From the NCBI GenBank assembly GCA_021791345.1, contig JAJYWT010000158.1, positions 1 to 27,791 of the forward strand: a stretch of DNA of 27,791 bases, given 5' to 3'. Source of the DNA: a bacterium (GTDB lineage Bacteria > Chloroflexota > Dormibacteria > UBA8260 > Bog-877). Each line of letters starts with the position of its first letter. The first letter of the stretch is position 1. The notes beneath the pieces are model-generated. The model did not search any database. It saw only the letters and a list, made by a program, of their open reading frames with translations, and was not told where the DNA came from. Of this stretch, positions 8,598 through 26,773 are shown in pieces. Both the position numbers and the translations under genes were made by a program.

Positions 8598-8635
8598 CGG
8601 CACCTGATCGTAACCGGTCGGGTGCGGGAGCGGTC

Positions 8636-10848: not shown

Positions 10849-10939
10849 GAAGCCCTCCCACCAGGCGTTGCCGCCGCGGAAGTGGTCAGTTCGGGTCGCC
10901 CCCGAGCTCGAGCTGCCGTCACCATTCTGGCCGCCCACG

Positions 10940-12031: not shown

Positions 12032-12201
12032 TGCTCGTAACCGGCGATGGCGCAGTGGCACAGTCGCGGCTGCTGCGACCAGCCCAAGCCGAATGGGTGG
12101 GAGATGATCTCTATCTCCTCTACGCGGAAGGGGATTTCTGGAGGGTCACATTTGGTAACCCTGCTCCTCCAGCAGCTCCTCCATCACGTCGCCGAGGATG
12201 A
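12031..12201 (+). pseudogene. Out-of-frame continuation of the J-domain/propeller protein
   Basis: An ATG at 12031 overlaps the preceding TGA (TGATG). The 56-codon frame encodes MLVTGDGAVAQSRLL, then EWVGDDLYLLYAEGDFWRVTF, which reads as one or two more propeller strands. In the same frame just upstream, bases 12004-12030 read IVAHGREGL, a natural join to the strand before the shift (WEYELRA). A -1 shift near 11990-12006 (region CCCGGCCGGGATCG) would make one protein. It could be a real frameshift mutation, an assembly error, or a translationally coupled small gene. The last about 18 codons overlap the convergent hdrC. Confidence 0.5.
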
Positions 12202-12829
12202 TGTGCAGATTGGGATCGATGCTCTTGATCATGTCCAGCACCCCGGTGAGGTGCCAGATCAAATACAGTTCGGTGAGCGTCTTGGGGGCCACGTCCCAAG
12301 AGGTGCTGGTGGTGTGCAGGGTCTCTGGCGGCAGCGCCTTGCGCCACAGCTGTAGGTTCGCGGAGGTCTCCTTGGTGTCCGGGCCCCAGTCGGGGAAGGC
12401 CTCCGGCTGAATCATGTCGGGGGAGACCTGGGTGCCGGTCCCCATGATCTTGTAGATGATCCGGCCGTAGCCCTCCAGCGCCTCCTTGGCGGTGCGCAAG
12501 CCATGCCTCACCGCCACCTCGCGCAGGATCGTGATCACTCCCCCGGGATTGTTCCCGCGAGGGCAGCGCAAGCAGGAGAAACACTGGGAGCAATCCCAGA
12601 CCTCACCGTTCATCTGCTCCCACACCAGCTCCACGTCCTGGCGGGCCACCGCCTGCGTGATGCGACGAGGACTGAAGTTGTAGAAACGGGCAGACGGGCA
12701 AGCGGCCACGCAGATCCCGCACTCGTAACAACCCTTGAGGTACTCCGGGAAGCGGGGGTCGGCCTCCACCTCGCTGAAGAGGCGCTGCTTTTCCTCGAAG
12801 GTGGCGTCGGGAATCGAGGTGGGTCGCAT
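12146..12829 (-). CDS. hdrC: HdrC-like iron-sulfur subunit of the sHdr complex
   Basis: The 227-residue protein carries two [4Fe-4S] sites in its N-terminal half: C34-x2-C37-x2-C40-x3-C44-P (CYECGICVAACP) and C80-x2-C83-x2-C86-x2-C89-P (CSQCFSCLRCP), then an extended helical C-terminus. HdrC subunits relay electrons between HdrA flavin and the HdrB catalytic subunit. The second motif has one residue fewer than the usual C-x2-C-x2-C-x3-C-P. ATG 12829 overlaps the tusA stop (ATGA) and has GGAGG at good spacing; earlier starts in the open frame run antisense-like through tusA. It is the last gene of the run and is far from its hdrB/hdrA partners (about 9 kb), unlike typical loci. Confidence 0.88.
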   Translation of the reverse strand: MRPTSIPDATFEEKQRLFSEVEADPRFPEYLKGCYECGICVAACPSARFYNFSPRRITQAVARQDVELVWEQMNGEVWDCSQCFSCLRCPRGNNPGGVITILREVAVRHGLRTAKEALEGYGRIIYKIMGTGTQVSPDMIQPEAFPDWGPDTKETSANLQLWRKALPPETLHTTSTSWDVAPKTLTELYLIWHLTGVLDMIKSIDPNLHIILGDVMEELLEEQGYQM

Positions 12830-13068
12830 CAGCTGGTCCTCCGGATCAGAAATCGCAGCACCTTGCCGTCCTGCTCGGTGGCGACCAACTCGTGGCCCAT
12901 CCGCCGCGACCAGGTCTGAATGTCCGGAGTCGCGCCCGGGTCGTCGGCGATCAGCAGCAAGGTCTGCCCCACCTCCACCTCCTTGATCGCCTTGGACACC
13001 TTCACGATCGGCATCGGGCACATCATGTGGAGACAGTCGAGCGTCTTGTCGGCACCTTCAATCGCCAT
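12829..13068 (-). CDS. tusA: TusA-family sulfur carrier protein
   Basis: The 79-residue protein has the TusA signature LDCLHMMCPMPIVKVSKAI: Cys17 in the C-P-x-P motif is the persulfide-carrying residue, with Cys12 just before it. The remainder (VEVGQTLLLIADDPGATPDIQ) is the conserved alpha/beta sandwich. TusA proteins accept sulfane sulfur from rhodaneses or DsrE proteins and hand it on; in sHdr organisms TusA is a required step in sulfur delivery to the complex. ATG 13068 is preceded by AGGAGGAGAACG, a strong ribosome site. The gene overlaps the zinc-ribbon gene upstream by 11 bases and hdrC downstream by 1, consistent with tight co-expression. Confidence 0.93.
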   Translation of the reverse strand: MAIEGADKTLDCLHMMCPMPIVKVSKAIKEVEVGQTLLLIADDPGATPDIQTWSRRMGHELVATEQDGKVLRFLIRRTS

Positions 13069-13279
13069 CGTTCTCCTCCTGCTTGGGGGTGCGGATGGAA
13101 TCCTCCTCAAGGAGGCGTGACCAATCCGCCTGCTGGTTGTCCTTGAACTTGCGCCGCACCCAGGTGGGGGCCAGCCGCCAGCAGGTCGGGCACATCGGCC
13201 GTCCGGCCTCCATCGGCATCATCTGGCAGAGCGGGCACAGCTGCTCAGTCGGCGCAGCGGTAGCATCGGATTCCTTCAC
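13058..13279 (-). CDS. Small zinc-ribbon protein in the sHdr run
   Basis: The 73-residue product has two C-x2-C knuckles, CPLC and CPTC, 12 residues between them, suiting a zinc ribbon or rubredoxin-like metal site; the C-terminal half is charged (KFKDNQQADWSRLLEED). GTG 13279 is the only start that keeps both knuckles. It overlaps lbpB by 35 bases, long for this operon, and tusA by 11. No family was recognised. Its place between lipoyl carriers and tusA suggests a role in assembly or regulation of the sulfur pathway, which is inference only. Confidence 0.7.
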   Translation of the reverse strand: MKESDATAAPTEQLCPLCQMMPMEAGRPMCPTCWRLAPTWVRRKFKDNQQADWSRLLEEDSIRTPKQEENDGD

Positions 13280-13709
13280 GGTCGATGCGCTCCTTGTAAT
13301 AGTCGAAGGCCTGCGGACCTGCCGTCAGCCGGGGCCGGTCGCGAACGAGGTCGCTGGGGCGCAGCCGGGCCAGCCAGCCCTCGCCATAGGGGTCGCGATT
13401 GGCAATCAGGATGTCTCTCTGGAAGCCTGCCTGATTGACCTCCAGGAGCTCCCCCGACAGGGGGGTTGGGAAGGGCCCCACCCACTTCGCGCTCTCGATG
13501 GTCGCCACGCTCTGGCCGGCTTCGAGCAGCCTGCCCGGACGTTTGAAGAGGATGCTCACCAGCTTGCCCGCCCGGGTCTGGGCGGGATCGGTCATGCCCA
13601 TGGTGGCGCTGCCGTCTGCCTCGAAGCGCACCCACACATCGCTCTCGAGGTCGTACTCAAGATCATGGGGGATGGCACAGCCCTGATGGGTACGCGGGGG
13701 AATGTCCAC
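13245..13709 (-). CDS. lbpA: Second lipoate-binding (GcvH-like) protein of the sHdr locus
   Basis: The 154-residue protein has the GcvH/biotinyl-lipoyl hammerhead fold. Start at GTG 13709 gives VDIPPRTHQGCAIPHDLEY; the nearby ATG at 13711 is out of frame. The lipoylation hairpin is GQSVATIESAKWVGPFPTPLSG with the modifiable Lys at about residue 75. Unlike glycine-cleavage GcvH, the hairpin reads ESAKWVGP as in sHdr lipoate-binding proteins, and no gcvT or gcvP is near. It ends with an unusual tail (DREGIRCYRCAD) having C-x2-C. Two bases separate it from the first lipoyl gene, so translation is probably coupled. The tandem paralogue is described in the next entry. Confidence 0.88.
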   Translation of the reverse strand: MDIPPRTHQGCAIPHDLEYDLESDVWVRFEADGSATMGMTDPAQTRAGKLVSILFKRPGRLLEAGQSVATIESAKWVGPFPTPLSGELLEVNQAGFQRDILIANRDPYGEGWLARLRPSDLVRDRPRLTAGPQAFDYYKERIDREGIRCYRCAD

Positions 13710-13711
13710 AT

Positions 13712-14149
13712 TCAGCTGCCGCAGTCGATCCCCTCCGCCTCCAGCAGGCGGCGGTAGGCTTCGACCCCATCGGTCCCGGTCACCAGGTCGCCACTCTCCT
13801 CCTCCCAATTGGAGGGTTGCAGCCGCACTATCCAGTTGCCGTACGGGTCCCGGTTCAGCACGGTGGGATCGTCCTGGGGCGCCTGGTTGACAGCCACGAT
13901 CTCACCGGTGAGCGGGCTCGGGATCGGGCCCACCCATTTTGAGCTCTCGATGGTGCCTGTGCTCTGACCCTTGGTCAGACCCCGGCCGACTTTCTTGGTG
14001 GTGACCACGATGATCTTGCCCGCCAGCTTTTGGGCGACATCGGTGATGCCGATCAGGGCACAGCCGTCGCTTTCGCGCTGGACCCAGACATGCTTTTGGA
14101 TCATGTAATGGAGATCGTCCGGAATGTTGCAGTGGTTGACTGTGGCCAA
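13712..14149 (-). CDS. lbpA: First lipoate-binding (GcvH-like) protein of the sHdr locus
   Basis: The 145-residue protein matches GcvH-like lipoate carriers: HVWVQRESDGCALIGITDVAQ, then GQSTGTIESSKWVGPIPSPLTG with modifiable Lys71, and NRDPYGNWIVRLQPSNWEEE. In sHdr organisms LbpA carries the sulfur intermediate on its lipoyl arm to the Hdr-like complex and cannot be replaced by glycine-cleavage GcvH. The start is a TTG at 14149 with GGAGGG about seven bases upstream and the preceding stop (TAG 14152-14154) immediately before it, so no ATG is available. The C-terminus (DGVEAYRRLLEAEGIDCGS) aligns with the paralogue at 13245-13709 up to its Cys-containing tail, showing a tandem duplication. Confidence 0.92.
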   Translation of the reverse strand: MATVNHCNIPDDLHYMIQKHVWVQRESDGCALIGITDVAQKLAGKIIVVTTKKVGRGLTKGQSTGTIESSKWVGPIPSPLTGEIVAVNQAPQDDPTVLNRDPYGNWIVRLQPSNWEEESGDLVTGTDGVEAYRRLLEAEGIDCGS

Positions 14150-14151
14150 GG

Positions 14152-14442
14152 CTATCCCTCCGTCGGTCCCTCTACGGCGGCTGCGACATGCGTCTCCCAG
14201 TGATAGAGCAAGAGATCGAAGCCCACCATCCTAATCTCGTCCGCGAACTTGTCCAAGAACTCGGGGTCGCGCCCGCGCGGGTTCACCTCCTTGCTGATCC
14301 CCTCGGAACAGGTCGGGCAGTTCACCTCCATGAAGATTCGTCCTTCCTCGCTTCTGGTGACCAGCCGGTCCCTATGGTCAGACAGCATGTGCGCGTGCAG
14401 CTCGCGCCGCTCGCCGGCCTGCTCGCAAAATGGACAGGTCAT
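14152..14442 (-). CDS. Small zinc-finger-like protein of the sHdr run
   Basis: The 96-residue product begins MTCPFCEQAGERRELHAHM, with C-x2-C then two or three His (HAHMLSDH), like a C2H2 zinc finger, and has a second knuckle NCPTCSEG near the middle. The C-terminal half (FADEIRMVGFDLLLYHWETHV) is helical with more His. No named family was recognised. ATG 14442 overlaps the previous stop (ATGA), and two bases separate it from the first lbpA, so it is embedded in the operon. Metal binding is a prediction from the Cys/His spacing; function unknown. Confidence 0.75.
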   Translation of the reverse strand: MTCPFCEQAGERRELHAHMLSDHRDRLVTRSEEGRIFMEVNCPTCSEGISKEVNPRGRDPEFLDKFADEIRMVGFDLLLYHWETHVAAAVEGPTEG

Positions 14443-14852
14443 GGGCTCGCCTGGTTGCGCACCCCCTCGATGCCAGCCTCGAAGAATCGCATCAGGGCAG
14501 CGACCAGGGCGGTCCCGCGCAGCTCGCCGGTCGCCGGATTCCAGGTCGCCAAGCCGGCCTGCGCGAGCGCTTGCCGGGAGACCTCCACGAGCGGGCTGGG
14601 GGTGGCCGCCAGGCTGCCCTCGGCCACGAGCCGCCGTGCCAGGGAATACTCAGAGGACTCGGCCAGGCACTGCAGGGCACGCCTCAGCAGCGCCTCGGAA
14701 AGACTGCGCCCAGCGCCCCCCGACCCCGCTTCCAGCGGCGCCCCCGGGGCCAACGCCAGCCCCCGCTCGTGAGCGCGCAGCAAGCCCGCCTGGCGGTCGG
14801 CGATGGCATCCGCGAGGGCGCTTCCTGGCTCCGGCTGTTCAAGCGACAGCAA
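14439..14852 (-). CDS. Unknown mostly helical protein of the sHdr run
   Basis: The 137-residue product is Ala/Leu/Glu-rich and predicted helical, without signal peptide, transmembrane helix or metal motif; it has a single Cys (RALQCLAESS). The C-terminal WNPATGELRGTALVAALMRFF is its most distinctive stretch. The start is TTG 14852, which has GGAGGAGG about seven bases upstream and overlaps the end of the membrane subunit gene by 14 bases. No family was recognised. Conserved packing between the membrane electron acceptor and the zinc-finger/lipoyl genes suggests it belongs to the system. Confidence 0.65.
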   Translation of the reverse strand: MLSLEQPEPGSALADAIADRQAGLLRAHERGLALAPGAPLEAGSGGAGRSLSEALLRRALQCLAESSEYSLARRLVAEGSLAATPSPLVEVSRQALAQAGLATWNPATGELRGTALVAALMRFFEAGIEGVRNQASP

Positions 14853-16833: not shown

Positions 16834-16836
16834 CGG

Positions 16837-17811
16837 TCAGCCAGCCGCCTTGAGACGCTTGCTGAGGGCGGGGAGGATGTCGAAGAGATCGCAGGTGGTC
16901 CCGTAGCTGGCAGCCTGGAAGATGGGAGCGTTGGGATCGGTGTTGATGGCGATGATCAGGCCGGCAGCCTGCATGCCCTCCAAATGCTCGGGCGCCCCGG
17001 AGATGCCGACCGCCACGTAGAGCTTCGGCTTGACCGTCATTCCCGACTTGCCGACCTGGCGCTCCTTGGGCAGCCAGCCACTGTCCACCACAGGACGAGA
17101 GGCTCCCAGCTCGGCTCCAAGGGCCGCCGCGAACTCCTCCGCCACCTCGATGTTGTCGGGCCCACCGATGCCACGCCCGACGCTGACGATCCGCTCCGCC
17201 TTGGTGATGTCGATCCCGCCCTCGCCGCCGCTCCCGGTGGCGATGAGCCGGGTCCTGAGGTGGTCGAGAGCCTCCGGAGGGGACATGACGCTCCTGATTC
17301 CCTCCCCGCCGGAGTGGCCGGCTGCCTCCGCGAAGGTGCCGGCGACCACCGAGAACACCGCCGGCGGGGCGGTCCTGGTGGTCGCCACCAACTTGCCTCC
17401 GTAGAGCTGGCTCTCGGCCACCAGCTCGCCACCTTCGGCACTGAGCCCGACGCAGTACGCCACCAGCGGCCGCCCGGTGGCGACCGCGCTGCCGGCCGCG
17501 AGGTCGATCCCGGCCGAGGTGTACCCCACCAGCACCACCGCCGGCTCGCGAGCCCGGATCGCCTCCACCAGCACCGCCTGGTGGGCCTCCGGGAGGTAGT
17601 CCGCCAGAGCCGGGCTGGTGACGGTGACGATGGTGTCCGCGGCGCCCAGCTGGTCCGCCAGCGGCTCGCAGTCCGCCGCCGCCACCAGGGCCTCGACCGG
17701 GCCGCCAAACGCCTCCGCCAGCTGCCGCGCCGCACCCAGCAGCTCAAAGGTGATGGGAGCGACCCGGCCCTGGTCGGCTTCCACGTAGACCATCACACCG
17801 GCCATGCTCAT
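16837..17811 (-). CDS. etfA: Electron transfer flavoprotein alpha subunit
   Basis: The 324-residue EtfA carries the C-terminal FAD domain: GRGIGGPDNIEVAEEFAAAL, ASRPVVDSGWLPKERQVGKS, then LYVAVGISGAPEHLEGMQ and AINTDPNAPIFQAASYGTTC. The consensus near the end is usually ADYGIVGDLFEVVP; here it is ASYGTTCDLFDILP, so the conserved Asp and Gly-Ile-Val-Gly are changed, possibly altering FAD environment. ATG 17811 overlaps the etfB stop (ATGA); ATG 17805 is a possible alternative two codons on. With EtfB it forms a soluble heterodimer. Its position between Hdr genes and the EMO-like gene points to electrons from the Hdr-like complex rather than from acyl-CoA dehydrogenases, none of which is encoded nearby. 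Confidence 0.93.
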   Translation of the reverse strand: MSMAGVMVYVEADQGRVAPITFELLGAARQLAEAFGGPVEALVAAADCEPLADQLGAADTIVTVTSPALADYLPEAHQAVLVEAIRAREPAVVLVGYTSAGIDLAAGSAVATGRPLVAYCVGLSAEGGELVAESQLYGGKLVATTRTAPPAVFSVVAGTFAEAAGHSGGEGIRSVMSPPEALDHLRTRLIATGSGGEGGIDITKAERIVSVGRGIGGPDNIEVAEEFAAALGAELGASRPVVDSGWLPKERQVGKSGMTVKPKLYVAVGISGAPEHLEGMQAAGLIIAINTDPNAPIFQAASYGTTCDLFDILPALSKRLKAAG

Positions 17812-18575
17812 GCTCCCACCAATCCGCGCTCGCGGAGCAGGTCGACTATCTGCTGGGCCACCTCCTCGGGTTTGCCCTCCAGCATCCTTGCCCCCGCGCC
17901 CCTGGCCGGCGCGGCCAGGCGGGTGACCGCCGGGGCCCCGACCGGAGCCCCAGCCGCCGGCGCCGCCGCGGTGATCTGGGCGGAGGCCATGACCTGGCGG
18001 AGGCGGCTGATGGGGACATACCGGGGCGGCCGAGCCGCCGCCTGCACCCCCAGGACTGCCGGCAATTGGACCTCCAGGGTTGCCATGCGCCCGCCGGAGT
18101 ACTCCTGCTGCACCCGGACCGTGGCCGCCCCCGGCTCGATGCCACTGACAACGCTGACGTGGGGCCACCCCAGGCTGGTTGCCAGGATCGGGGCTAGCTG
18201 GCCATGGATGTCGTCGGCGGCCTGAACCCCGGTCAGCACCAGATCGGGAGCCATCCCCGGGAGAACCTCGGTCAGAGCCGCCGCCGCCCGTGGCGCATCG
18301 GTGCGCCCGTCGGGGGTGGGGATCTTCACGGCCCGGTCGGCACCCCGCGCCAGCGCGGCGTAGAGCATCTGGTCGACCCCATCGGCGTCCAGAGCCAGGG
18401 CCGTGACCTCACCGCCTCCAGCCTCCTTGAGGAGGATCGCCTCCTCCAGGGCGTGGTCGTCGAATTCGTTCAACTTCCACTTGACGCTGTCCCGGTCTAT
18501 GTCGGTACCCGTGGCGTCAACCTCCACCTCCTCCACCAGATCGGGGACCTGCTTCAAGATCACTGCGATATGCAC
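17808..18575 (-). CDS. etfB: Electron transfer flavoprotein beta subunit
   Basis: The 255-residue EtfB begins VHIAVILKQVPD and shows the AMP/flavin-binding features LNEFDDHALEEAILLKE, GVQAADDIHGQLAPILATSLG and the signature YSGGRMATLEVQLPAVLGVQ followed by ARPPRYVPI. After about residue 195 there is an Ala/Pro/Gly-rich linker and a C-terminal helix (EEVAQQIVDLLRERGLV) that arches over EtfA in known structures. GTG 18575 has AGGAGG at optimal spacing; the open frame to 18620 overlaps the upstream gene and is not homologous. Whether this Etf bifurcates electrons cannot be told from sequence alone; no bifurcation partner such as NADH-linked subunits is near. Confidence 0.93.
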   Translation of the reverse strand: MHIAVILKQVPDLVEEVEVDATGTDIDRDSVKWKLNEFDDHALEEAILLKEAGGGEVTALALDADGVDQMLYAALARGADRAVKIPTPDGRTDAPRAAAALTEVLPGMAPDLVLTGVQAADDIHGQLAPILATSLGWPHVSVVSGIEPGAATVRVQQEYSGGRMATLEVQLPAVLGVQAAARPPRYVPISRLRQVMASAQITAAAPAAGAPVGAPAVTRLAAPARGAGARMLEGKPEEVAQQIVDLLRERGLVGA

Positions 18576-18585
18576 GCACCGCCTC

Positions 18586-19851: not shown

Positions 19852-20595
19852 TCAGACCTCCATCCGGTGGATGCCCAGCAGCCGGCGGGTCAGCTGGGGC
19901 AAGGGGGGAATGACCTTGTTGAACTCCTGGCTCATCCGGATCCGGGTGATCGTGTACAGGTAAACCCCATAGACGCAGGCGAGGTAGACGTCGACCCCGA
20001 AGGCCTCGGTTCCGAAGCGCGTGAATCCGACGGAGCGTCCCGTCTGGTTGACAAATGCAATGCCCTCGCCGACCCGCAGGTAGGTCTCCCCGGCCGAGCT
20101 GGCGGATAGGTCGTGCTCCTCCATGGTCACCAGCGGGAGGGCGCCGGTGCCGATCTCCGGGTCCCAGATCCAGCGCGTCCAGAGCCAGTGACGCTCGGGG
20201 TCGAAGAAGTGCAGTGCCTCCCCCGCCACGTCCCGGCGGATGCCCTGGTCCACCTCCGCCAGCTCCTGATCGAACGAGTCGATGCGCGCCGAGACGGGCC
20301 CCGGCTCGTGGAGAAGGTTCCAGAGCGCCTGCCGCCACCGTCCATCTCCGACCTGGGCCAGCAGCTCGTCGGAGTGGCGCCGAGCCGCAAAGATGGTGCG
20401 CAGACAGCCTCGCAGCTGCTCCGAGGACAGAGCGGACAGCGAGTCGCGGTCCAGCATCTCCCGGAAGCGCCGGGACTTCACCTCGAGCTCCAAGGCGATC
20501 CCATCGAGCTCCGGCGCCTGGATCAGCCGCTCGGCCTCGCGCATGAACTCCTGAGCGGCATCGGTGTCGACCACCTGGCCGTGGCCGGTGATCAT
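19852..20595 (-). CDS. Conserved 'Hyp' type protein following hdrA
   Basis: The 247-residue product has no recognised domain. It is helical in the first half (AAQEFMREAERLIQAPELDG, then EVKSRRFREMLDRDS) and has a distinctive C-terminal half (LWTRWIWDPEIGTGALPLV, AFVNQTGRSVGFTRFGTEAF, VYLACVYGVYLYTITRIRMS). In sHdr loci of Hyphomicrobium, Acidithiobacillus and others, an uncharacterised conserved gene ('hyp') lies between hdrA and the second hdrC/hdrB pair; this one is in exactly that position, downstream of hdrA (ATGA overlap) and abutting the HdrC-HdrB fusion. Homology to known Hyp proteins is inferred from position and general character, not tested. Confidence 0.75.
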   Translation of the reverse strand: MITGHGQVVDTDAAQEFMREAERLIQAPELDGIALELEVKSRRFREMLDRDSLSALSSEQLRGCLRTIFAARRHSDELLAQVGDGRWRQALWNLLHEPGPVSARIDSFDQELAEVDQGIRRDVAGEALHFFDPERHWLWTRWIWDPEIGTGALPLVTMEEHDLSASSAGETYLRVGEGIAFVNQTGRSVGFTRFGTEAFGVDVYLACVYGVYLYTITRIRMSQEFNKVIPPLPQLTRRLLGIHRMEV

Positions 20596-21662
20596 CCCGC
20601 GACAGGGACCGCTGAACGGCGGCGGAGCGCGGCCACCGCCTTCATGGCGGCCGATCCGGCCATGGAGACGCAGTCGTCCAGATCCTTGGGACCCGCCGCC
20701 GCGCCGGCCACGTAGATGCCCGCCACCGAGGTGCCGACGGAGTCGAGGGCGTTCTCCGGGGGGGCGATGAAGCCGTGCTTGTCCTGGGCCACGCCCAGCA
20801 GCTTGCCCACCGTCTTGGTCCCCTCCGACGGGACCATCCCCACCGAGAGGACCACCACATCCATGGGGATCTCCATGGGACGGTTCATGGTGGTGTCCTC
20901 TCCCTTGATCACCAGGCGGTCGCCCCGGCGGGTGATCTCGGTCACGATCCCGCGCACGAAGTTCACGTGGTCTTGCTCCTGCGCCTTCCAGTAGATGCGG
21001 TCCTCCCAGAACCCGTACATCCGCATGTCGATATAGAAGATGAAGACGCGACAGTCGGGGACCAGCTCCCGGATTTCGGAGGCCTCCTTGGTGGCGACGC
21101 CGCAGCAGACCTTGGAGCAGTACTCGTTGCCGATGCGGCGGTCGCGGGAGCCGACGCACTGGATGAAACAGACCTGCTTGGGGGGCTGGCCGGTGGATGG
21201 GCGCACGAAGTTCTTGGCCGCCAGCATCCGCTCGGCGTCGACCAGAGTGATCACGTCGTCGTACTCGTAGTAGCCGTAGGACTGGGTCTCCCGGCCCGGG
21301 TCGAAGTGGTCGAAGCCGGTGGCGATGATGGCCGCGCCACAGCTGACCTCGGCAGCCGCGCCGTCCGCCGCTAGCAGGCTGGCCCGGAAGTCCCCCAGCT
21401 CCCCGTCGAAGGCGGTGACCTCGGTCTCCAGGTGAACCTTGATCAAGGGGTGGGTCAGCACCGCCTGGCGGGCGATCTCCAGCACCTCCTGGGCGGGGCG
21501 GTGATCCAGTGCGAAGGCGGAGTAGCCCGCCGAGTCCGGGGTCCCGCCCAACCGTGCCCTGCGCTCGACCAGGATCACCTCGCTGCCGAGGTCCGCCGCC
21601 CCCCGCGCCGCCTCCAGGCCAGCCGGGCCACCGCCGATCACCAGGATGGCTTCACTTGACAC
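20592..21662 (-). CDS. hdrA: HdrA-like FAD/iron-sulfur subunit of the sHdr complex
   Basis: The 356-residue protein starts with a FAD-binding Rossmann motif (VIGGGPAGLEAARGAADLG), has GGTPDSAG, then the HdrA iron-sulfur region C165-x3-C169-VGSRD and YC182-SKVC186-C187 followed by GVATKEASEIREL, and ends with a second nucleotide-binding half (VVVLSVGMVPSEGT, GIYVAGAAAGPKDLDDCVSM). It lacks the N-terminal and ferredoxin-insert domains of methanogen HdrA, and is of the short sHdrA type. It carries electrons between the HdrC/HdrB subunits and the electron acceptor. GTG 21662 is the start, overlapping the hdrB end by 11 bases. Confidence 0.92.
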   Translation of the reverse strand: MSSEAILVIGGGPAGLEAARGAADLGSEVILVERRARLGGTPDSAGYSAFALDHRPAQEVLEIARQAVLTHPLIKVHLETEVTAFDGELGDFRASLLAADGAAAEVSCGAAIIATGFDHFDPGRETQSYGYYEYDDVITLVDAERMLAAKNFVRPSTGQPPKQVCFIQCVGSRDRRIGNEYCSKVCCGVATKEASEIRELVPDCRVFIFYIDMRMYGFWEDRIYWKAQEQDHVNFVRGIVTEITRRGDRLVIKGEDTTMNRPMEIPMDVVVLSVGMVPSEGTKTVGKLLGVAQDKHGFIAPPENALDSVGTSVAGIYVAGAAAGPKDLDDCVSMAGSAAMKAVAALRRRSAVPVAG

Positions 21663-22866
21663 CGGTCTGCTCCCAGGTGAGGTACTGCATCTCCCCGCTC
21701 TGAATCCGCTTCAGGTCCTGCTCAAACTCGGCCCAGCGCGCCTCCCAGTCGATGCCCATCTTCTCCAGCAGGGGTCGGTAGTCGACCGAGTGCCAGTGCA
21801 GCTGGCAGACGCGGTAGGGATGCGCCCCCATCGCCAGGGCCACGAACTGGGCCTCCGACATCACCGGGATGCCGACGTTGTACCCCTTCGCCTGGCCCAC
21901 GAACTGACTCTTGTCGAGGGTCGTGACGCAGCCGGTGTCGTGGGTGAGCACCACGTCCGGATTCGCTTCGTCCTTCATCACCTGGATCTTGCGCAGGGTG
22001 GCAAAGGAGCGCGTGAAGTCCCGTTGCACCAGGATGTGGCGGAAGCCGAAGCCGCAGCAATCGAACCAGGTGGAGTAGTCGGCCACCTTGGCGCCCATGG
22101 CCTGGACCACCGCCGACACGATCGCAGTGCGCTGACCACTGTAGATGTCGGCGTCGTAGATGGCGTCCTCAGCGACCAGCTTGTAGTAGTGGCAGGCCGG
22201 GTGAACCGTCACCGTGATGTTCGAGAAGTCCAACACCCGCCGCTTGGCGAACTCTCCCCGCATCGCGTGCACCCATTCGCTGTAGTGCACTATCTCCTCG
22301 GGGATCACCAGCGGCTTGCCCAGCCGGGTCATGATGTCGCGCACCTGGGCGCGTAGGTCCGGGCTGTGCACCAGCTGCTCCCGCACCTCCTTGTAGTGGC
22401 CGTAGCTGGTGCCACAGTGGATCATCGGGTAGTAGCCGGTCTCATAGGCAGCGGCAAAGTTGCGCTGCGCCACGGCCGCTTGAGCGGCCGCATTGGAGGT
22501 GGCGGAGGCGTAGTAGTTCCAGGCGGTGCAGGAGGTCTGGTCACGGGGGTCGTTGTAGTCCAGTTCCAGAGCTCGGTGCAGCCAGAATATGGAGGTGGAG
22601 TAGCCGGGTATGTGCCCACACTGGCCGCAGCTCTTGTGGTGCCAGGTGTGCTGCATCGGAATCTTCTTCTTGCGCCCGTACTTGGTCTCCACCTCGACGT
22701 AGGGCTCGGGCACTCGCTGCACCACCCACTCGCCCTGTCGCTCCAAGTCGAAGACCGCCTCGCGCAGATCCTCGGTCGGCGCCTTTGCCGGGTCCCGCTC
22801 AAACTTCCGGGCCAGAGACGATGGGGGAGGTGACCCCGCGATGCTCATCAACGGCTCGTCGCTCAT
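21652..22866 (-). CDS. hdrB: HdrB-like catalytic subunit of the sHdr complex
   Basis: The 404-residue protein has two CCG-type modules. The second is C225 (VHPACHYYK), C270-C271 (WFDCCGFGF) and C313 (THDTGCVTTLD), enough for a noncubane cluster although the final C-x2-C is C-x4-D. The first is irregular: C80-x2-C83 (SCGQCGHIPGYSTS), C113 (TSCTAWNYY) where CC would be expected, and C151 (IHCGTSYGHYK). In sHdr complexes HdrB1 is thought to hold the catalytic site where lipoyl-bound sulfur is oxidised. A basic 60-residue N-terminal extension (ETKYGRKKKIP) precedes the first module. ATG 22866 has AAGGAG at close spacing. It is the first gene after the control region. Confidence 0.9.
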   Translation of the reverse strand: MSDEPLMSIAGSPPPSSLARKFERDPAKAPTEDLREAVFDLERQGEWVVQRVPEPYVEVETKYGRKKKIPMQHTWHHKSCGQCGHIPGYSTSIFWLHRALELDYNDPRDQTSCTAWNYYASATSNAAAQAAVAQRNFAAAYETGYYPMIHCGTSYGHYKEVREQLVHSPDLRAQVRDIMTRLGKPLVIPEEIVHYSEWVHAMRGEFAKRRVLDFSNITVTVHPACHYYKLVAEDAIYDADIYSGQRTAIVSAVVQAMGAKVADYSTWFDCCGFGFRHILVQRDFTRSFATLRKIQVMKDEANPDVVLTHDTGCVTTLDKSQFVGQAKGYNVGIPVMSEAQFVALAMGAHPYRVCQLHWHSVDYRPLLEKMGIDWEARWAEFEQDLKRIQSGEMQYLTWEQTGVK

Positions 22867-22993
22867 ACGCTCCTTGCCTCCTATGTCAATGACCGCGCCT
22901 CAGTATGTGAGAGCCAAGTCGTCCTGACACTCCCCCGATTGAGGTGATTAGCATCCCCCAAAGGGGGGATTCGGGATTGCCGTCAGGGTTCGG
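22867..22993. promoter_or_regulatory. Control region upstream of the hdrB operon with a palindrome
   Basis: The only sizeable gap in the sHdr run (127 bases). It has a perfect dyad ATCCCCC-AAAG-GGGGGAT at 22953-22970, about 87 bases before the hdrB start, and a smaller CTCA-N5-TGAG dyad overlapping CATACT (reverse strand of 22902-22907), a candidate -10 element about 36 bases before the start codon. GTGTCA is 17 bases upstream of CATACT as a weak -35 element. The first dyad could bind the adjacent NarL-type regulator or ArsR protein, or be the end of the regulator transcript; no T-run follows. Confidence 0.5.
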
Positions 22994-23641
22994 CTAGTTC
23001 GGAGCAGGCTCCAACAGGCCCGCCTGGAGAGCCGCCAGAACCGCTTCCAAGCGATGCTTCTTGCCCATCTTGCGCAGCGTGGACTTGATATGGCTGCGGA
23101 TCGTCTGTTCGCTGAGGAACAGGCGAGAGGCGATCTCTCGATTGCTGAGACCCGCAGCGATCAGCTCCAGAACCTCCAGTTCCCGCTGGCTGAGATGCCA
23201 GGGACCGCCGGAGTCCCTGAAGCCACGACGCGCGAAGCCCAGGACGATCCCGGTCACGGCCGGGTCGAGGTACGCCTGGCCGGCCGCGACCGCCCGGATC
23301 GCCACTCTGAGCTGGGCCACGGGCACTTGTTTGAGCACGTAGCCTGCGGCCCCGGCACCGATCGCCGCCAGCGCGTCCTGATCGCCCGCGATCCCGGTCA
23401 GCACCAGCACCTGCGCGGTCGCGCCCCGATGGCGCAGCGCGCGCAGAGCGCCGAGCCCCCCCATGCCCGGCATGTGCAGATCCATCAGGACCACGTCGGC
23501 CTGCGAGGTGGTGATCAGCTCGACCGCCTCCTCCCCGCTGGCCGCGGTGGCCACGACCTCGAGATCCGGGTCAGCTGCGAACATGAGCTGCAGCCCCTCG
23601 CGGACCATCTCGTGGTCATCTGCGATCAGGAGGCGGATCAC
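22994..23641 (-). CDS. NarL/FixJ-type response regulator
   Basis: The 215-residue protein has a receiver domain (Asp8, Asp9 acidic pocket; phospho-acceptor Asp54 in VVLMDLHMPGMGG; Thr82 in VLVLTG; Lys104) and a GerE/LuxR helix-turn-helix (LSQRELEVLELIAAGLSNRE, then LSEQTIRSHIKSTLRKMG). GTG 23641 overlaps the kinase stop (GTGA), so it forms a pair with that kinase. It lies directly upstream of the hdrB control region and is the obvious candidate to regulate the operon, though the target site is inferred. Confidence 0.93.
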   Translation of the reverse strand: MIRLLIADDHEMVREGLQLMFAADPDLEVVATAASGEEAVELITTSQADVVLMDLHMPGMGGLGALRALRHRGATAQVLVLTGIAGDQDALAAIGAGAAGYVLKQVPVAQLRVAIRAVAAGQAYLDPAVTGIVLGFARRGFRDSGGPWHLSQRELEVLELIAAGLSNREIASRLFLSEQTIRSHIKSTLRKMGKKHRLEAVLAALQAGLLEPAPN

Positions 23642-24936
23642 GGTGCCGCCGCCACCGCCATCGACCGGGGGACCGTCGCCTCGACCATGGTCCCCTGGCC
23701 GGGCTCGGAGATGAGCTCCAAGCGGCCGTCGAACGCCGCCAACCGTGAGCGCATGCCGCGAATGCCGAACTGAGGGCGCATCGGTTCAACGGCCATGCCA
23801 CCGCCATCGTCTGACACCTGTAGTCGGACAGGGTCAGATCCGGCATCCAACACCACCGTCACCCGATGCGCGCGCGCGTGCCGCGCCACGTTGCTGAGCG
23901 CCTCCTGGGCCACGCCCAACAGCACCTGGCGGGTTTCCCGGGTCAGGTCGGCCAGATGCCCCCTGGCCTCCCACTCCAGTTCCAAGGGACGGTCGGGGGT
24001 GCCCAGATCTGCCAAATGAGCCTGCAATTGATCGAGGAACTGCCGCTCCAACAGCTCGGCCGGCCAAAGGTCATAGATGCTCTGACGGACCTGGATCAAA
24101 GTCTTCTCGGCCAGGCGGCGACACTCCGCCAAGCGCCGGGCCTGTTCCGGGTCTTGGCCCTCAGCGGCCCGGGCGCAGCCCTCGAGCGTGCAGGTGATCG
24201 CGAACAGGGACTGGATCACCGCGTCATGCATCTCGATGGAGATACGGGTCCGCTCCGCCTCCACGGCCAGGCGACGAGTGCGGTCGACGCACATGCGCAC
24301 CCCGGCGAGGGCTTCGCTGGCGTGAGGACAGAACCGCTCGAGCGCCTCCTCCATGCCGCGGCCGAGGCCGTGCCCCGGTAAGGTGACGCCGAGCAACCCG
24401 AGCCGCTGATCTCGGTAGGCGAGAGCGGCAATGGCCATCACGCCCTGGCCCAGCTTCGCCCGTATGACCCGGCCCGGGCGGCGAAAGGCTCTGGCCAGTG
24501 AGCCATGGTCGTCGATTGGCAGGTTGGGTAGCAACTGCTGTGCATTCTCGGCACCGCCGAACCATCGCCAACTGCCCACCCGGGCCTGAGCATCGTCGAC
24601 AAGGCCGATGGTGACGCCGACAAAGCCCAGCCCCTCGACCAGAGCGGTGCCGATGCACTGCTGCACGTCCGACAACTCGGCCGTCCCGGTCACCATGGAG
24701 TGCAGACGCTGGAGGGCCGCGAGCTCCCTCGCCACCTGCGGGGAGGACGACGACCGCGGGTCCCCGAAGGTCGCGTGGCGGGGTGCGGGGCGCGCCACAC
24801 CGGGGTCCGACCCATCCCGTCGGGAGGGGTGGACCTCGACCACGGCGTTGCGAGTCCTGCTCCGGGTAGGCGTCCGGCCGCCCGGCGCCGCTTCCCGCAC
24901 CACCCTAATTGCAGGTGGCCAACTGGCCCTCTTCAT
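23638..24936 (-). CDS. Soluble GAF-domain sensor histidine kinase
   Basis: The 432-residue protein has a disordered N-terminus (about 65 residues), a GAF-like sensor region (about 70-225, with Cys94, Cys203 and Cys216), a HisKA_3 dimerisation domain with phospho-acceptor His237 in ERTRISIEMHDAVIQ, and a HATPase_c domain (EALSNVARHARA N-box, VSDDGGGM G1, FGIRGMRSR G2). There is no transmembrane segment, so the input is cytoplasmic, perhaps a small redox or sulfur signal on GAF cysteines or a bound cofactor (inference). ATG 24936 lies inside the arsR end; GTGs at 24903/24900, just after that stop, are alternative starts. It is paired with the downstream response regulator. Confidence 0.9.
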   Translation of the reverse strand: MKRASWPPAIRVVREAAPGGRTPTRSRTRNAVVEVHPSRRDGSDPGVARPAPRHATFGDPRSSSSPQVARELAALQRLHSMVTGTAELSDVQQCIGTALVEGLGFVGVTIGLVDDAQARVGSWRWFGGAENAQQLLPNLPIDDHGSLARAFRRPGRVIRAKLGQGVMAIAALAYRDQRLGLLGVTLPGHGLGRGMEEALERFCPHASEALAGVRMCVDRTRRLAVEAERTRISIEMHDAVIQSLFAITCTLEGCARAAEGQDPEQARRLAECRRLAEKTLIQVRQSIYDLWPAELLERQFLDQLQAHLADLGTPDRPLELEWEARGHLADLTRETRQVLLGVAQEALSNVARHARAHRVTVVLDAGSDPVRLQVSDDGGGMAVEPMRPQFGIRGMRSRLAAFDGRLELISEPGQGTMVEATVPRSMAVAAAP

Positions 24937-25267
24937 CGAGGGTGGCCCGGAACACCATGCGCAACAGGTCGAAGGCCTCGATCAAGCGCCGGTCGCGCAA
25001 CTGGTAGTAGACCGTGCTTCCCTCCCGGCGGCAAGAGACCAGCCGCTTGGCGCGGAGGATGCCCAGATGCTGGGAGAGGTTGCTCTGGGTGACTCCAAGC
25101 CCGAGGAGAAGCTCGGTGACCGATCGGGGCCCGTCCCGGAGTTGGTCGATGATGAGTAGGCGGGTGGGATGGGCGAGCGCCTTGCAGAGATAGGCGTGCA
25201 TCTCGTAGTAGGCCCCAGCCGGGGAATCGATGCCACGGCCCTCAGATGAGGAGCGAGATGTCCGCAT
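24905..25267 (-). CDS. ArsR-family transcription regulator, candidate sHdrR-type sulfur sensor
   Basis: The 120-residue product is a winged-helix ArsR repressor: YLCKALAHPTRLLIIDQLRD, helix-turn-helix VTELLLGLGVTQSNLSQHLG, and wing LVSCRREGSTVYYQL. Cys28, Cys79 (in the wing segment) and Cys119 (next to last residue) are the only cysteines. In SqrR, BigR, YgaV and sHdrR regulators a pair of cysteines senses persulfides; the N-terminal helix Cys and C-terminal Cys119 could do so here, but the pattern is not the standard one. ATG 25267 overlaps the DsrE stop; ATG 25201 is an alternative but would leave a very short N-terminal helix. No ribosome site is evident for either. Confidence 0.85.
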   Translation of the reverse strand: MRTSRSSSEGRGIDSPAGAYYEMHAYLCKALAHPTRLLIIDQLRDGPRSVTELLLGLGVTQSNLSQHLGILRAKRLVSCRREGSTVYYQLRDRRLIEAFDLLRMVFRATLDEEGQLATCN

Positions 25268-25805
25268 CTGAGGCCCAGTCCAGGAAGGTGGCGGCTCCAC
25301 AGGCGGCCTCCGCCCCCTCCATGAAGTCTGCGCTCTTGTAGCCGAATACCTCCATGGTCATGGCACAGGGCATAAGCCGCACCCCGCTGGCGACGGCGGC
25401 CTCCAGCAGGTCGTCGATGGAAGCCACTCCATGCGACTTGAACAGCGACCTCATGACCGAGGTTCCCAACGAGGTCATGCCTGGGATCGCGCCCAGCAGG
25501 TTGGGGACCGGCATCGGCATCGCCGGATTGCCGAGTGGAGCCACCTGCAGCTTGGTCTGCTTCTGCTTGTGAATGATGTTCAGACCGTAAAAGGTGAAGA
25601 AGATGGCGGAGTCCCAACCCAGGGCAGCGGCGGTGGTGGCCAGGATCAAGGGCGGGTAAGCCATGTCGAGGGTGCCCTTGGTCGAGATCAGGGCAATCTT
25701 CTTGACACGGGCCTCCTCCTGTCTAGCCTTCTCCGCCAAATACTCGTCCACAGCCTGGCGGACCATCTCCTGCATCTCGGTGGGAGCAGAGATCGGAGCT
25801 TGCAT
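25242..25805 (-). CDS. DsrE2/DsrE3-type sulfurtransferase (DrsE_2 family, PF13686)
   Basis: The 187-residue protein has the DrsE_2 pattern: IALISTKGTLDMAYPPLILA, GWDSAIFFTFYGLNII, APLGNPAMPMPVPNLLGAIP, GVRLMPCAMTMEVFGYKSAD and GAATFLDWASDADISLLI. Candidate sulfur-carrying cysteines are Cys147 (MPCAMTM) and Cys169. These proteins pass sulfane sulfur to TusA in sHdr and rDsr organisms. ATG 25805 is preceded by GGAGGG at good spacing; the upstream frame is low complexity. A helical N-terminal extension (about 35 residues) precedes the domain. It is the first gene of the minus-strand run, leading into arsR, and is divergent from a second DsrE gene at 25936. Confidence 0.92.
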   Translation of the reverse strand: MQAPISAPTEMQEMVRQAVDEYLAEKARQEEARVKKIALISTKGTLDMAYPPLILATTAAALGWDSAIFFTFYGLNIIHKQKQTKLQVAPLGNPAMPMPVPNLLGAIPGMTSLGTSVMRSLFKSHGVASIDDLLEAAVASGVRLMPCAMTMEVFGYKSADFMEGAEAACGAATFLDWASDADISLLI

Positions 25806-25935
25806 CGTGAGCCCTCCGCGCTGGCCTTGCCCGGTACCCCCGGAGCAGGAGGTCAACCATATTCGGATGTCGGCATACTATGCTTCCTGCGCTGGAAGTC
25901 AAGCCCCAGGCTCACTGCACCCGAGGAGGAGGCCG
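25806..25935. promoter_or_regulatory. Divergent control region between the two DsrE genes
   Basis: The 130-base gap must hold promoters for both operons. A perfect 11-base palindrome GCATACTATGC (25873-25883) lies about 53 bases upstream of the plus-strand ATG; the embedded CATACT or TATGCT could be -10 elements, with GGTCAA or CCATAT 17 bases upstream as poor -35 elements. It could equally be a dyad operator for the neighbouring ArsR protein. The minus-strand promoter was not resolved. Confidence 0.45.
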
Positions 25936-26310
25936 ATGGCCAACAAACTGCTGATCATGATGACGTCAGGTCCGGACTCACCACATCGCCTGGGCACTCC
26001 GTTCTTTCAGGCGATGGCCGCAGCCGCTCTCGACTACGAGGTGCTGATCGTGACCACCATGGACGCCACCCTCCTCTTCAAGAAGGGAGTCGCGGAAGGG
26101 CTGACCGTCAAGGAGGGCGCCAACAAGTCGGTGCTGGACTTCATCCGGGAGGCGAAGTCAGCCGGGGTTAGCCTGTATGTTTGTCCGGCCTCGCTCTCCC
26201 TGCATGACCTGTCTATGGATGACCTGATCCCCGAGGTGGATGCGGCAATGGGCGCGGCCCGCTACTCCGAGGTGGGGATGGATGATGACTGCAGGGTCTT
26301 CTGCTATTGA
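25936..26310 (+). CDS. DsrE/DsrF-family small sulfurtransferase-like protein
   Basis: The 124-residue product has the DsrE-fold pattern KLLIMMTSGPDSPHRLGTPF, FQAMAAAALDYEVLIVTTMD, GVSLYVCPASLSLHDLSMDD. Cys83 after the fourth strand is the position of the sulfur-carrying Cys in DsrE family members; Cys119 and Cys123 lie at the end. ATG 25936 has GGAGGAGG six bases upstream. It starts a short plus-strand operon (26310 ATG overlaps this stop) and is divergent from the DsrE2-type gene. A role in sulfur relay to the sHdr complex follows from location and family. Confidence 0.87.
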   Translation: MANKLLIMMTSGPDSPHRLGTPFFQAMAAAALDYEVLIVTTMDATLLFKKGVAEGLTVKEGANKSVLDFIREAKSAGVSLYVCPASLSLHDLSMDDLIPEVDAAMGAARYSEVGMDDDCRVFCY

Positions 26311-26507
26311 TGGACGCCCCGACTCCCTCCTCGCAATTCACGATCACCAGTCGGCGGCGTTCCGCCTTCCACCTCCAGAGCCCCGACGGATCGCCGCTCA
26401 CCTTCCCCACCCGGCAGGCCGCCGAGGCCGTCTGTGCAGCCTTGAATCGAGAAGACCCGAACGATGAGGAGCCGGAGTATCTGGTGGAGGAGCACAGTTC
26501 AGCATGA
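26310..26507 (+). CDS. Small unknown protein between DsrE and ubiquitin-like genes
   Basis: The 65-residue product (MDAPTPSSQFTITSRRRSAF ...) starts at ATG 26310 inside the dsrE stop (TGATG) and ends with ATGA overlap into the next gene. It has one Cys (AEAVCAALNRE) and an acidic C-terminus (DPNDEEPEYLVEE). No family was recognised. Its place between two genes with coupled starts argues that it is real. Confidence 0.65.
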   Translation: MDAPTPSSQFTITSRRRSAFHLQSPDGSPLTFPTRQAAEAVCAALNREDPNDEEPEYLVEEHSSA

Positions 26508-26773
26508 ATACAGGCAACGATCTCGCCAAGGTTTCGGTGTCGTCGGCCGGTGCGCGACAGGAGTTCTCGCTGCCCTGGGAGACGACCCTCAGGGATCTCA
26601 GCCAGCTGGCAGAGGAGAGGTTCGGAGCGCAAGCCGGCACCGGAGCCGAGCTCTGGTGCACTGACGGAACCTCCATGTCCACCAAGCTGGAAAGGACGCT
26701 GGGCGAACTCAAGGATCGGCTGATCTGCCCTCGGCGGGAATTCGAGCTTCGCCCGCATCGACCCCGAAGGTAG
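26504..26773 (+). CDS. Small ubiquitin-like (beta-grasp) protein
   Basis: The 89-residue product has a pattern of strand (KVSVSSAG), strand (RQEFSLPWETTLRDL), helix (SQLAEERFG), strand (AELWCTDGTSMS) and a terminal LGELKDRLICPRREFELRP that resembles the beta-grasp/ubiquitin-like fold, especially the 'LPWETTL...L' and 'LxDGT' positions. It does not end in Gly-Gly, so conjugation or thiocarboxylate chemistry of the MoaD/ThiS type is not supported. Cys52 and Cys75 are present. Fold assignment is from pattern alone. It is the last gene of the DsrE operon (ATGA overlap with the previous gene). Confidence 0.6.
   Translation: MNTGNDLAKVSVSSAGARQEFSLPWETTLRDLSQLAEERFGAQAGTGAELWCTDGTSMSTKLERTLGELKDRLICPRREFELRPHRPRR

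Follow-up and report, generated by a model that had tools for sequence, protein, structure and literature searches.

A type II sHdr locus in a Dormibacteria contig and the Apr-Qmo genes beside its relatives

Does a packed run of sHdr-like genes in a member of the Dormibacteria encode a route for the oxidation of sulfur, and if so, where do the sulfite and the electrons go? We analyzed a stretch of 27,791 nucleotides (contig JAJYWT010000158.1; hereafter the window) in which an earlier reading of the DNA letters, the sequence-only reading, had recognized a complete sHdr-type sulfur-oxidation locus. We found that this locus is a type II sHdr locus by gene set, gene order, kinship and signature residues. 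By analogy with better studied systems, we consider it probable that the locus enables a member of the Dormibacteria to oxidize sulfane sulfur and to pass the electrons through EtfAB and a membrane protein, EMO, to menaquinone. Judging from literature searches, no such locus had been described for this class; the system itself is already published. If the locus works, the Dormibacteria join the bacteria that draw electrons from reduced sulfur. Papers are cited by PubMed Central number.

The sHdr genes form one run on the minus strand, from 25805 to 12146, that begins with DsrE2 and ends with sHdrC1, as determined by Pfam scans and gene calls (Table 1). Open reading frames (ORFs) were called using GC content by codon position, and the Pfam scans covered 30 of the 131 ORFs listed for the window. 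In the direction of transcription, the run encodes DsrE2, an ArsR-family regulator, a kinase, a response regulator, sHdrB1, sHdrA, sHdrH, sHdrB3, EtfB, EtfA, EMO, proteins of 137 and 96 amino acids (aa), two lipoate-binding proteins (LbpA and LbpB), TusA, and sHdrC1. Twelve of the 16 junctions are within -14 to +10 bases; the remaining gaps are -59 (between DsrE2 and ArsR), +61, +127 and +176. Every gene that the sequence-only reading had named is present, and the packing with overlaps that it described is there. Its list lacked the 137-aa and 96-aa genes within the run, a second, divergently transcribed DsrE gene, and a lipoate ligase gene that lies outside the range it had given. The divergent DsrE and the ligase belong with the sHdr locus.

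All parts of the run have Pfam support except sHdrH and the small proteins, and several of the scores (sHdrC1, EtfA, EtfB, DsrE2 and the divergent DsrE) come from ORFs that are longer than the probable gene. The ORF for sHdrH (Hyp) opens deep within hdrA, with a likely start near 20595. It had no Pfam match in the scan; the protein was aligned with its orthologues, and its predicted structure has a pLDDT of 92.6. DsrE2 scored 184 bits against NF047629, under the cut-off of 210.

Type II sHdr is defined by shdrC1, shdrB1, shdrA, shdrH and shdrB3 together with etfAB in one syntenic cluster (PMC11582611). All seven of these genes are on one strand within 12146-22866, with shdrC1 at the far end. 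HdrC2 and HdrB2 are fused into a single HdrB3 of 421 aa (18586-19851). This fusion is the type II trait; the separate shdrC2 and shdrB2 of type I are not found. The earlier proposal that the electron exit differs from that of type I loci was correct, but the difference is part of the published type II definition and is not new.

Type II loci are widespread. The loci compared here (L001-L080) are the best 80 of at least 584 candidates confirmed when genomes were scanned with an alignment of sHdrB3. sHdrA, sHdrH and sHdrB3 are together in 80 of 80, with sHdrB1 added in 77 and sHdrC1 in 73. The complete type II set with EtfAB is in 61 of the 80, many of the others being on short or cut contigs, and EMO is in 62. 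The hosts, assigned to phyla from titles or NCBI ranks, belong to the Chloroflexota, Thermomicrobiota, Actinomycetota, Bacillota, Bacteroidota, Calditrichota, KSB1, Planctomycetota, Acidobacteriota, Gemmatimonadota, Myxococcota, Rokubacteria, Neomarinimicrobiota and SAR324. Because type II loci span many phyla, the window locus is a single case of a widespread type. Metagenome-assembled genomes (MAGs) of Bacteroidota, Calditrichota, KSB1 and Planctomycetota carry type II cores (L006, L008, L009, L012-L016, L022, L024, L029, L030, L032-L035, L038, L045, L046, L049, L068, L069, L071). To our knowledge, these four phyla are seldom named among sulfur oxidizers. In a study of sediments that searched with the six type I subunits, the 329 MAGs reported to have sHdr were all Proteobacteria (PMC12345210).

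The kinship of sHdrA was examined by pairwise match and by phylogeny. The window sHdrA matched 6tjr, which we take to be the sHdrA of Hyphomicrobium, over residues 5-345 of 356 with 293.6 bits; methanogen HdrA reached at most 212.7 bits. The tree contained 84 type II rows (the window and 83 from the loci or relatives, with three genomes present twice), 11 rows of type I (6tjr with ten relatives, chosen from 120 that were listed), three stretches of methanogen HdrA and one QmoB. The window sHdrA is inside the type II clade (support 100/99), with loci from Thermomicrobium and Sulfobacillus. Type I sHdrA forms its own clade (100/100) and methanogen HdrA is outside. The fork that joins type I and type II has support of 97/44, and QmoB is on a very long branch. 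The sHdr identity that had been proposed is thus upheld by gene content, the match to 6tjr, the signature residues of LbpA (below) and the phylogeny of HdrA, one of the checks that the sequence-only reading had suggested, which places the protein in the type II clade and not with methanogen HdrA.

We compared the locus to known systems. EtfBA-linked loci with two or three LbpA proteins, called Group III, are known from Actinobacteria and Firmicutes, and the LbpA alignment of the same paper includes Thermomicrobium roseum (PMC6067878). T. roseum, counted among the Chloroflexi in the paper on its cluster, has a 19-gene hdrABC-etfAB-tusA-dsrE-lbpA cluster whose genes rose a mean of 45-fold on starvation (PMC6776052). 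Like Group III (Cao et al. 2018) and trd_0160-0142 of T. roseum, the window has the core genes together with lipoate-binding proteins, TusA and carriers of the DsrE type, as well as EtfAB and an EtfD-like membrane protein. It differs in the position of sHdrC1 and TusA, which close the run at its 3' end and do not precede sHdrB1, in the extra 137-aa gene, and in the two-component pair and ArsR at the 5' end, an arrangement present too in Chloroflexi loci L027 and L043. In addition, relatives of the window have a sat-aprBA-qmoAB-HdrCB module inserted in or adjacent to the locus. The type I system of Hyphomicrobium denitrificans has C1, B1, A, H, LbpA and TusA in common with the window, with sHdrA matching over nearly its full length. 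In the window, the B3 fusion takes the place of C2 and B2, and EtfAB and EMO are present.

The neighboring gene argS (6720-8603) indicates the lineage. Its closest match is 98% identical. The named matches begin at 80% identity and belong to Candidatus Dormibacteria, Dormibacteraeota or Dormiibacterota; the first with another name, from Verrucomicrobiae, is at 61%. Dormibacteria also provide the closest named homologues of sHdrB3, with 82% identity (92% for a partial protein). Among genome loci, L001 (bacterium LSA5.bin69) is nearest, and it aligns colinearly with 9935-22974 of the window (13 kb) with 82.7% DNA identity. The high-GC background had been called unexpected. It is usual: a Dormibacteria MAG in print also has 68% GC, and sulfur cycling there was judged by dsr and sox genes only (PMC8357290). 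Dormibacteria are found in soils and acid mine settings (PMC9326234). None of the papers listed by literature searches was on sHdr in Dormibacteria, and it was fair to call this a lineage in which the pathway has rarely been described. We also surveyed 110 genomes of the class that contains the genome of L001; these are related to one another and their completeness is not stated. Seven of them had sHdrB1 at E 1e-40 or better (G001, G002, G014, G016, G040, G052 and G055).

The sulfur carriers have the residues expected of them. LbpA is recognized by its lipoyl lysine and two extra cysteines that are absent from GcvH (PMC6067878). Counting only rows above the limits for identity and coverage, C7 and K71 of LbpA are in 63 of 63 rows and C143 in 45 of 63; in LbpB, C12 and the lipoyl lysine K76 are in 61 of 61 and C150 in 43 of 61. 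The window LbpA and LbpB each have all three residues. The CPxP cysteine of TusA (C17) is in 65/65 rows, C147 of DsrE2 in 48/48, and C83 of the divergent DsrE in 65/65. Dedicated lipoate assembly (sLpl(AB), LipS1/S2) is found in most, not all, sHdr genomes, and an orthologue of the window's ligase is at the equivalent position in G001, G040, G052 and G055. The claim of a complete locus holds for the full type II core. It does not extend to a sulfite-oxidizing enzyme or a lipoyl synthase, neither of which is among the 30 scanned ORFs; LipS1/S2 are also absent there and were not searched for elsewhere.

The iron-sulfur ligands of sHdrB1 follow a strict pattern. The bridging cysteines of methanogen HdrB are Cys81 and Cys234 (PMC13083937). 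In the window sHdrB1, C313 keeps the position of Cys234, and S154 stands for Cys81, S112 for Cys41 and D310 for Cys231. We compared 77 rows (the window, 72 of the 80 loci and four Dormibacteria; at least 50% identity and 80% coverage), and C80, C83, S112, C113, C151, S154, C225, C270, C271, D310 and C313 were invariant in 77 of 77. We presume that Cys41 and Cys231 of methanogen HdrB are cluster ligands. The eight ligand cysteines of sHdrC1 were invariant in 76 of 76 rows. Among the papers listed by a search of open-access literature, none mentioned the sHdrB1 pattern; it offers a direct target for the chemistry of sulfite formation. An HdrB1-like protein encoded on a plasmid of Acidithiobacillus ferrooxidans (L081:332-4490) agrees with the pattern. 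Its gene is the only one of its kind there; the plasmid also carries a gene for a GcvH-like protein and two for hemerythrin-domain proteins, and no HdrA or HdrC is annotated within the 18 kb shown.

The membrane protein EMO is a candidate for passing electrons from ETF to menaquinone, judging by homology and by the adjoining etfBA. Its best solved relative is EtfD (9ojn_A), matched with 334.8 bits in two stretches, the membrane part and the iron-sulfur part. The N-terminal part of EMO aligns with the membrane part of EtfD, and EMO has Fer4 and CCG domains. Mycobacterial EtfD holds heme b by His78 and His241 and has clusters D1 to D4 (PMC13083937). Both heme b histidines are kept in the window EMO, as H69 and H226. 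We compared 60 rows (the window, 54 of the 80 loci and five Dormibacteria; at least 38% identity and 80% coverage). None of the rows has Cys at a D1 position; the four residues there are Asp, Asn/Ser/Thr, Asp, and Ser/Thr/Ala. His583 of EtfD is kept in 60/60, and Cys712, of cluster D2, is Asp in 60/60. That is, EMO differs from mycobacterial EtfD in lacking the D1 cysteines, in the change of the D2 Cys712 to Asp, and in lacking the long C-terminal tail. D1 ligands are missing from FadF and DgcB too, and electron entry at D2 has been suggested for these proteins (PMC13083937); for this reason EMO fits an ETF acceptor like FadF or DgcB. Glu is at the Cys712 position and His583 is kept in 86 of 86 rows of sHdrB3 (the window, 80 of 80 loci and five Dormibacteria, of which G016a is a qmoAB-linked copy). 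The best solved relative of EtfB is 1o94_C, which we take to be the non-bifurcating ETF of Methylophilus, with 132.7 bits; the best of the ETFs that we class as bifurcating scored 72.7 bits.

Based on work with Hyphomicrobium sHdr, DsrE-type carriers and TusA would deliver sulfane sulfur to LbpA. The lipoyl arm of LbpA would present the sulfur to the sHdr complex, and sHdrB1 would oxidize it to the level of sulfite. The electrons would pass through sHdrA, sHdrC1 and sHdrB3 to EtfAB, and from there through EMO (heme b) to menaquinone. In Dormibacteria, the sulfite would probably be converted to sulfate by AprBA and Sat, encoded by a module that is outside the window or that the window organism lacks. 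Most probably the host lives as a heterotroph, with sulfur as a supplementary source of electrons, since RuBisCO (E 1e-40) was not found in the five nearest sHdr relatives (G001, G002, G040, G052 and G055). Matches at this level were present in 14 of the 110 class genomes, including G014 and G016. Entry of thiosulfate by a Sox-type route is unsupported because SoxB was found in 0 of the 110 genomes at E 1e-20; other entry enzymes were not searched for.

We found genes for the next step, from sulfite to sulfate, beside sHdr in close relatives. AprA was over its curated cut-off in six of the 110 class genomes, every one of them among the seven with sHdrB1. G040 and G052 share one gene order: divergent DsrE / DsrE2, ArsR, kinase, regulator, sat, aprB, aprA, qmoA, qmoB, an HdrC-HdrB fusion, and then sHdrB1 onward. 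G001 has the same order from sat on, close to the start of its contig. In G055 the module is downstream, after the ligase gene; in G016 it is on the contig bearing the start of the sHdr cluster, approximately 31 kb ahead of tusA; and G014 has sat, aprB and a partial aprA on a short contig. In an Actinomycetes MAG (L050, G006), the module is directly upstream of sHdr. The stretches that contain the module are L001:223-6790, L097/L098 (G040), L099/L100 (G052), L101/L102/L118 (G055), L116 (G016) and L109 (G006). The window, like G055, has sHdrB1 immediately after the regulator, and no Sat, AprB, AprA, QmoA or QmoB was found in the 27.8 kb of the window by tblastn with the proteins of the relatives. 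Because the module is inside or adjoining the sHdr operon in close relatives, sulfite probably goes on to sulfate in this class by way of AprBA and Sat. The link between Apr and sHdr is a trait of Dormibacteria rather than of type II loci at large.

The module contains an HdrC-HdrB fusion. QmoC was over its cut-off in none of the 110 class genomes. Weaker matches were present in 13, three of them in genomes without sHdrB1, where they covered most of the model with 83-96 bits. The qmoAB-linked fusion is 57-61% identical to the window sHdrB3 and clusters with sHdrB3 in a quick tree. Its N-terminal part scored 111-116 bits against the QmoC model in G001, G016, G040, G052 and G055; sHdrB3 scored 59-67 bits in six genomes. 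The domain matches of the fusion in L001 are only of the Fer4 and CCG types. QmoAB with HdrBC or HdrD in place of QmoC is known from Gram-positive sulfate reducers, QmoAB-HdrBC is known from other sulfur oxidizers too, and the QmoC-less forms are thought not to be coupled to the membrane (PMC10504309). Compared to those systems with Sat-AprBA, the relatives of the window have sat-aprB-aprA-qmoA-qmoB followed by the fusion, with no QmoC over the cut-off; the module is tied to a type II sHdr operon, DsrA was not found, and the module is not in the window. The EtfD-like EMO of the neighboring operon may offer a membrane exit for Qmo electrons. A broader notion is that a single operon in Dormibacteria takes sulfane sulfur to sulfate within the cytoplasm, that sHdr and AprBA-QmoAB share the EtfAB/EMO exit through paralogous HdrC-HdrB subunits, that EMO replaces QmoC in the connection to menaquinone, and that the window organism has the Apr half elsewhere in its genome. 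We think this rather unlikely. A QmoC-less module beside type II sHdr makes it testable how Qmo without a membrane subunit reaches quinone.

Several observations weigh against oxidation of sulfane sulfur by the route described above. In the literature we came across no type II sHdr whose function had been proven genetically. The authors of the T. roseum study proposed thiol oxidation for the cluster and asked for validation (PMC6776052). G002 has sHdrB1 and its AprA was not over the cut-off; its sHdr contig stops inside sHdrB1. The co-occurrence of sHdrB1 and AprA has a Fisher p of 3.3e-9, a guide only that ignores relatedness and overstates the association because the 110 genomes are related. 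A single origin of sHdr in Dormibacteria was not rejected (approximately unbiased test, p 0.345). LipA, a source of lipoate, was over its cut-off in only four of the seven sHdr genomes of the class. In the other 78 genomes (those of L003-L080), AprA was over the cut-off in 4 of 50 and 2 of 28, with a split match in one further genome of the 28. AprA is thus rare in type II genomes outside Dormibacteria, and Apr is not a general part of type II.

The complex might make no sulfite and instead convert thiols to disulfides, linking the thiol of an organic compound or a protein to TusA or a similar carrier, as a means of persistence. This was proposed for the homologous T. roseum cluster with its response to starvation (PMC6776052), and it would be in keeping with the lack of SoxB in the class survey. 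The carriers LbpA, TusA and DsrE, however, are those of the sulfite-forming Hyphomicrobium system, and the Sat, AprBA and QmoAB genes inside or adjoining the operon in relatives are best explained if sulfite is made. The argument from Apr is indirect because the window itself is without an Apr gene. Taken together, we regard thiol oxidation as improbable and favor oxidation of sulfane sulfur to sulfite.

The same genes would have another meaning if the Apr-Qmo-sHdr set worked in reverse, reducing sulfate or disulfide. Gram-positive sulfate reducers do have QmoAB with HdrBC or HdrD instead of QmoC; QmoAB-HdrBC is known in other sulfur oxidizers too (PMC10504309), the DsrE2/TusA/LbpA set is of the oxidizer type, and DsrA was found in 0 of the 110 class genomes at E 1e-20. 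Operation in reverse therefore seems to us highly improbable. A soluble Hdr of the methanogen or Flox/Mvh type, with flavin-based bifurcation, is likewise hardly credible. HdrA, HdrB and HdrC do have domains in common with methanogen Hdr. HdrA of those systems is approximately 650 aa, carries ferredoxin domains, and has Mvh or Flx as partners, whereas the window sHdrA has 356 aa and no Fer4 match and groups with sHdrA. The 30 scanned ORFs include no gene for Mvh, Flx or MCR, and in all 77 rows of sHdrB1 a serine replaces one bridging cysteine of the two. That EtfB is closer to a non-bifurcating ETF is a mild argument against bifurcation. The tree and the residues disfavor this alternative.

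The two-component pair and ArsR probably switch the operon. All three genes hold their position in G040, G052 and G055, and kinase-regulator pairs are beside sHdr in three of the 80 loci (L027, L043 and L073). sHdrR, the ArsR-type sulfane-sulfur sensor of Hyphomicrobium, has conserved Cys50 and Cys116, and many sHdr-linked ArsR proteins lack the pair (PMC12423496). We could not recognize this pair in the window ArsR. Its sole cysteine in common with the G040, G052 and G055 orthologues, within the aligned part (which did not include sHdrR itself), is in the stretch YLCKAL. Upstream of dsrE2, TTGACTT is conserved in four of four aligned Dormibacteria sequences; 16 bases after this box is TAATAT in two genomes, with one-change versions in the window and G055.

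Table 1. Features of the sHdr locus and adjoining genes in the window (aa, amino acids).
Feature	Position	Strand	Evidence
LplA-like lipoate-protein ligase, candidate for LbpA lipoylation	9760..10848	-	PF21948 5.9e-29
sHdrC1, two [4Fe-4S] sites	12146..12829	-	Fer4 dicluster matches on longer ORF
TusA sulfur carrier	12829..13068	-	PF01206 9e-24
LbpB, second lipoate-binding protein, probable TTG start	13245..13715	-	PF01597 5.3e-28
LbpA lipoate-binding protein	13712..14149	-	PF01597 4.4e-34
zf96, conserved zinc-finger-like protein, 96 aa	14152..14442	-	invariant Cys/His positions
137-aa protein	14439..14852	-	tblastn matches in Dormibacteria sHdr loci
EMO, EtfD-like membrane ETF:menaquinone oxidoreductase candidate, 664 aa	14839..16833	-	Fer4 and CCG; 9ojn_A
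EtfA	16837..17811	-	PF00766 3.3e-34, PF01012 2.3e-32 (longer ORF)
EtfB	17808..18575	-	PF01012 1.4e-28 (longer ORF); 1o94_C 132.7 bits
sHdrB3, HdrC-HdrB fusion, 421 aa	18586..19851	-	CCG domain, two [4Fe-4S] motifs (Fer4)
sHdrH (Hyp)	19852..20595, start approximate	-	orthologue between A and B3 in 80/80 loci
sHdrA flavoprotein, 356 aa	20592..21662	-	6tjr match 293.6 bits; type II clade
sHdrB1, proposed catalytic subunit	21652..22866	-	PF02754 2.8e-11 (CCG); ligand pattern 77/77 rows
LuxR-type response regulator	22994..23641	-	PF00072 4.5e-26, PF00196 2.1e-19
Sensor histidine kinase (HisKA_3/HATPase), start uncertain, ORF opens at 24936	23638..24843	-	PF07730 5.4e-14
ArsR-family regulator	24905..25300	-	PF01022 9.1e-13
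DsrE2 sulfur carrier	25242..25805	-	PF13686 1.3e-47 (longer ORF)
Divergent promoter region, candidate TTGACT-16-TAGTAT for minus-strand run	25806..25935	.	box conservation
Second DsrE-type sulfurtransferase, divergent	25936..26310	+	PF02635 3.3e-10 (longer ORF)
Conserved 89-aa protein	26504..26773	+	no Pfam match

The rest of the scanned window is housekeeping or unremarkable. In addition to ArgS, it encodes a Lon-domain protein, thioredoxin, SAM hydroxide adenosyltransferase, YjeF, a DnaJ-domain protein and DUF1015. The window contains no Rfam family at the gathering score and no tRNA.

Three small proteins accompany the locus. An orthologue of the 89-aa protein adjoins the divergent DsrE in G040, G052 and G055. 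The 137-aa protein is confined to sHdr loci of Dormibacteria, being found by tblastn in L001 and L002 of the 80 loci and also in G040, G052 and G055. The 96-aa protein, zf96, had no fold match. It has CPxC and His motifs, and C3, C6, H18, H23, C42, C45 and H81 are invariant in 26 of 26 rows. It is encoded in 26 of the 80 type II loci, in hosts from the Chloroflexota, Thermomicrobiota and Actinomycetota, one Gemmatimonadota record and two Myxococcota records.

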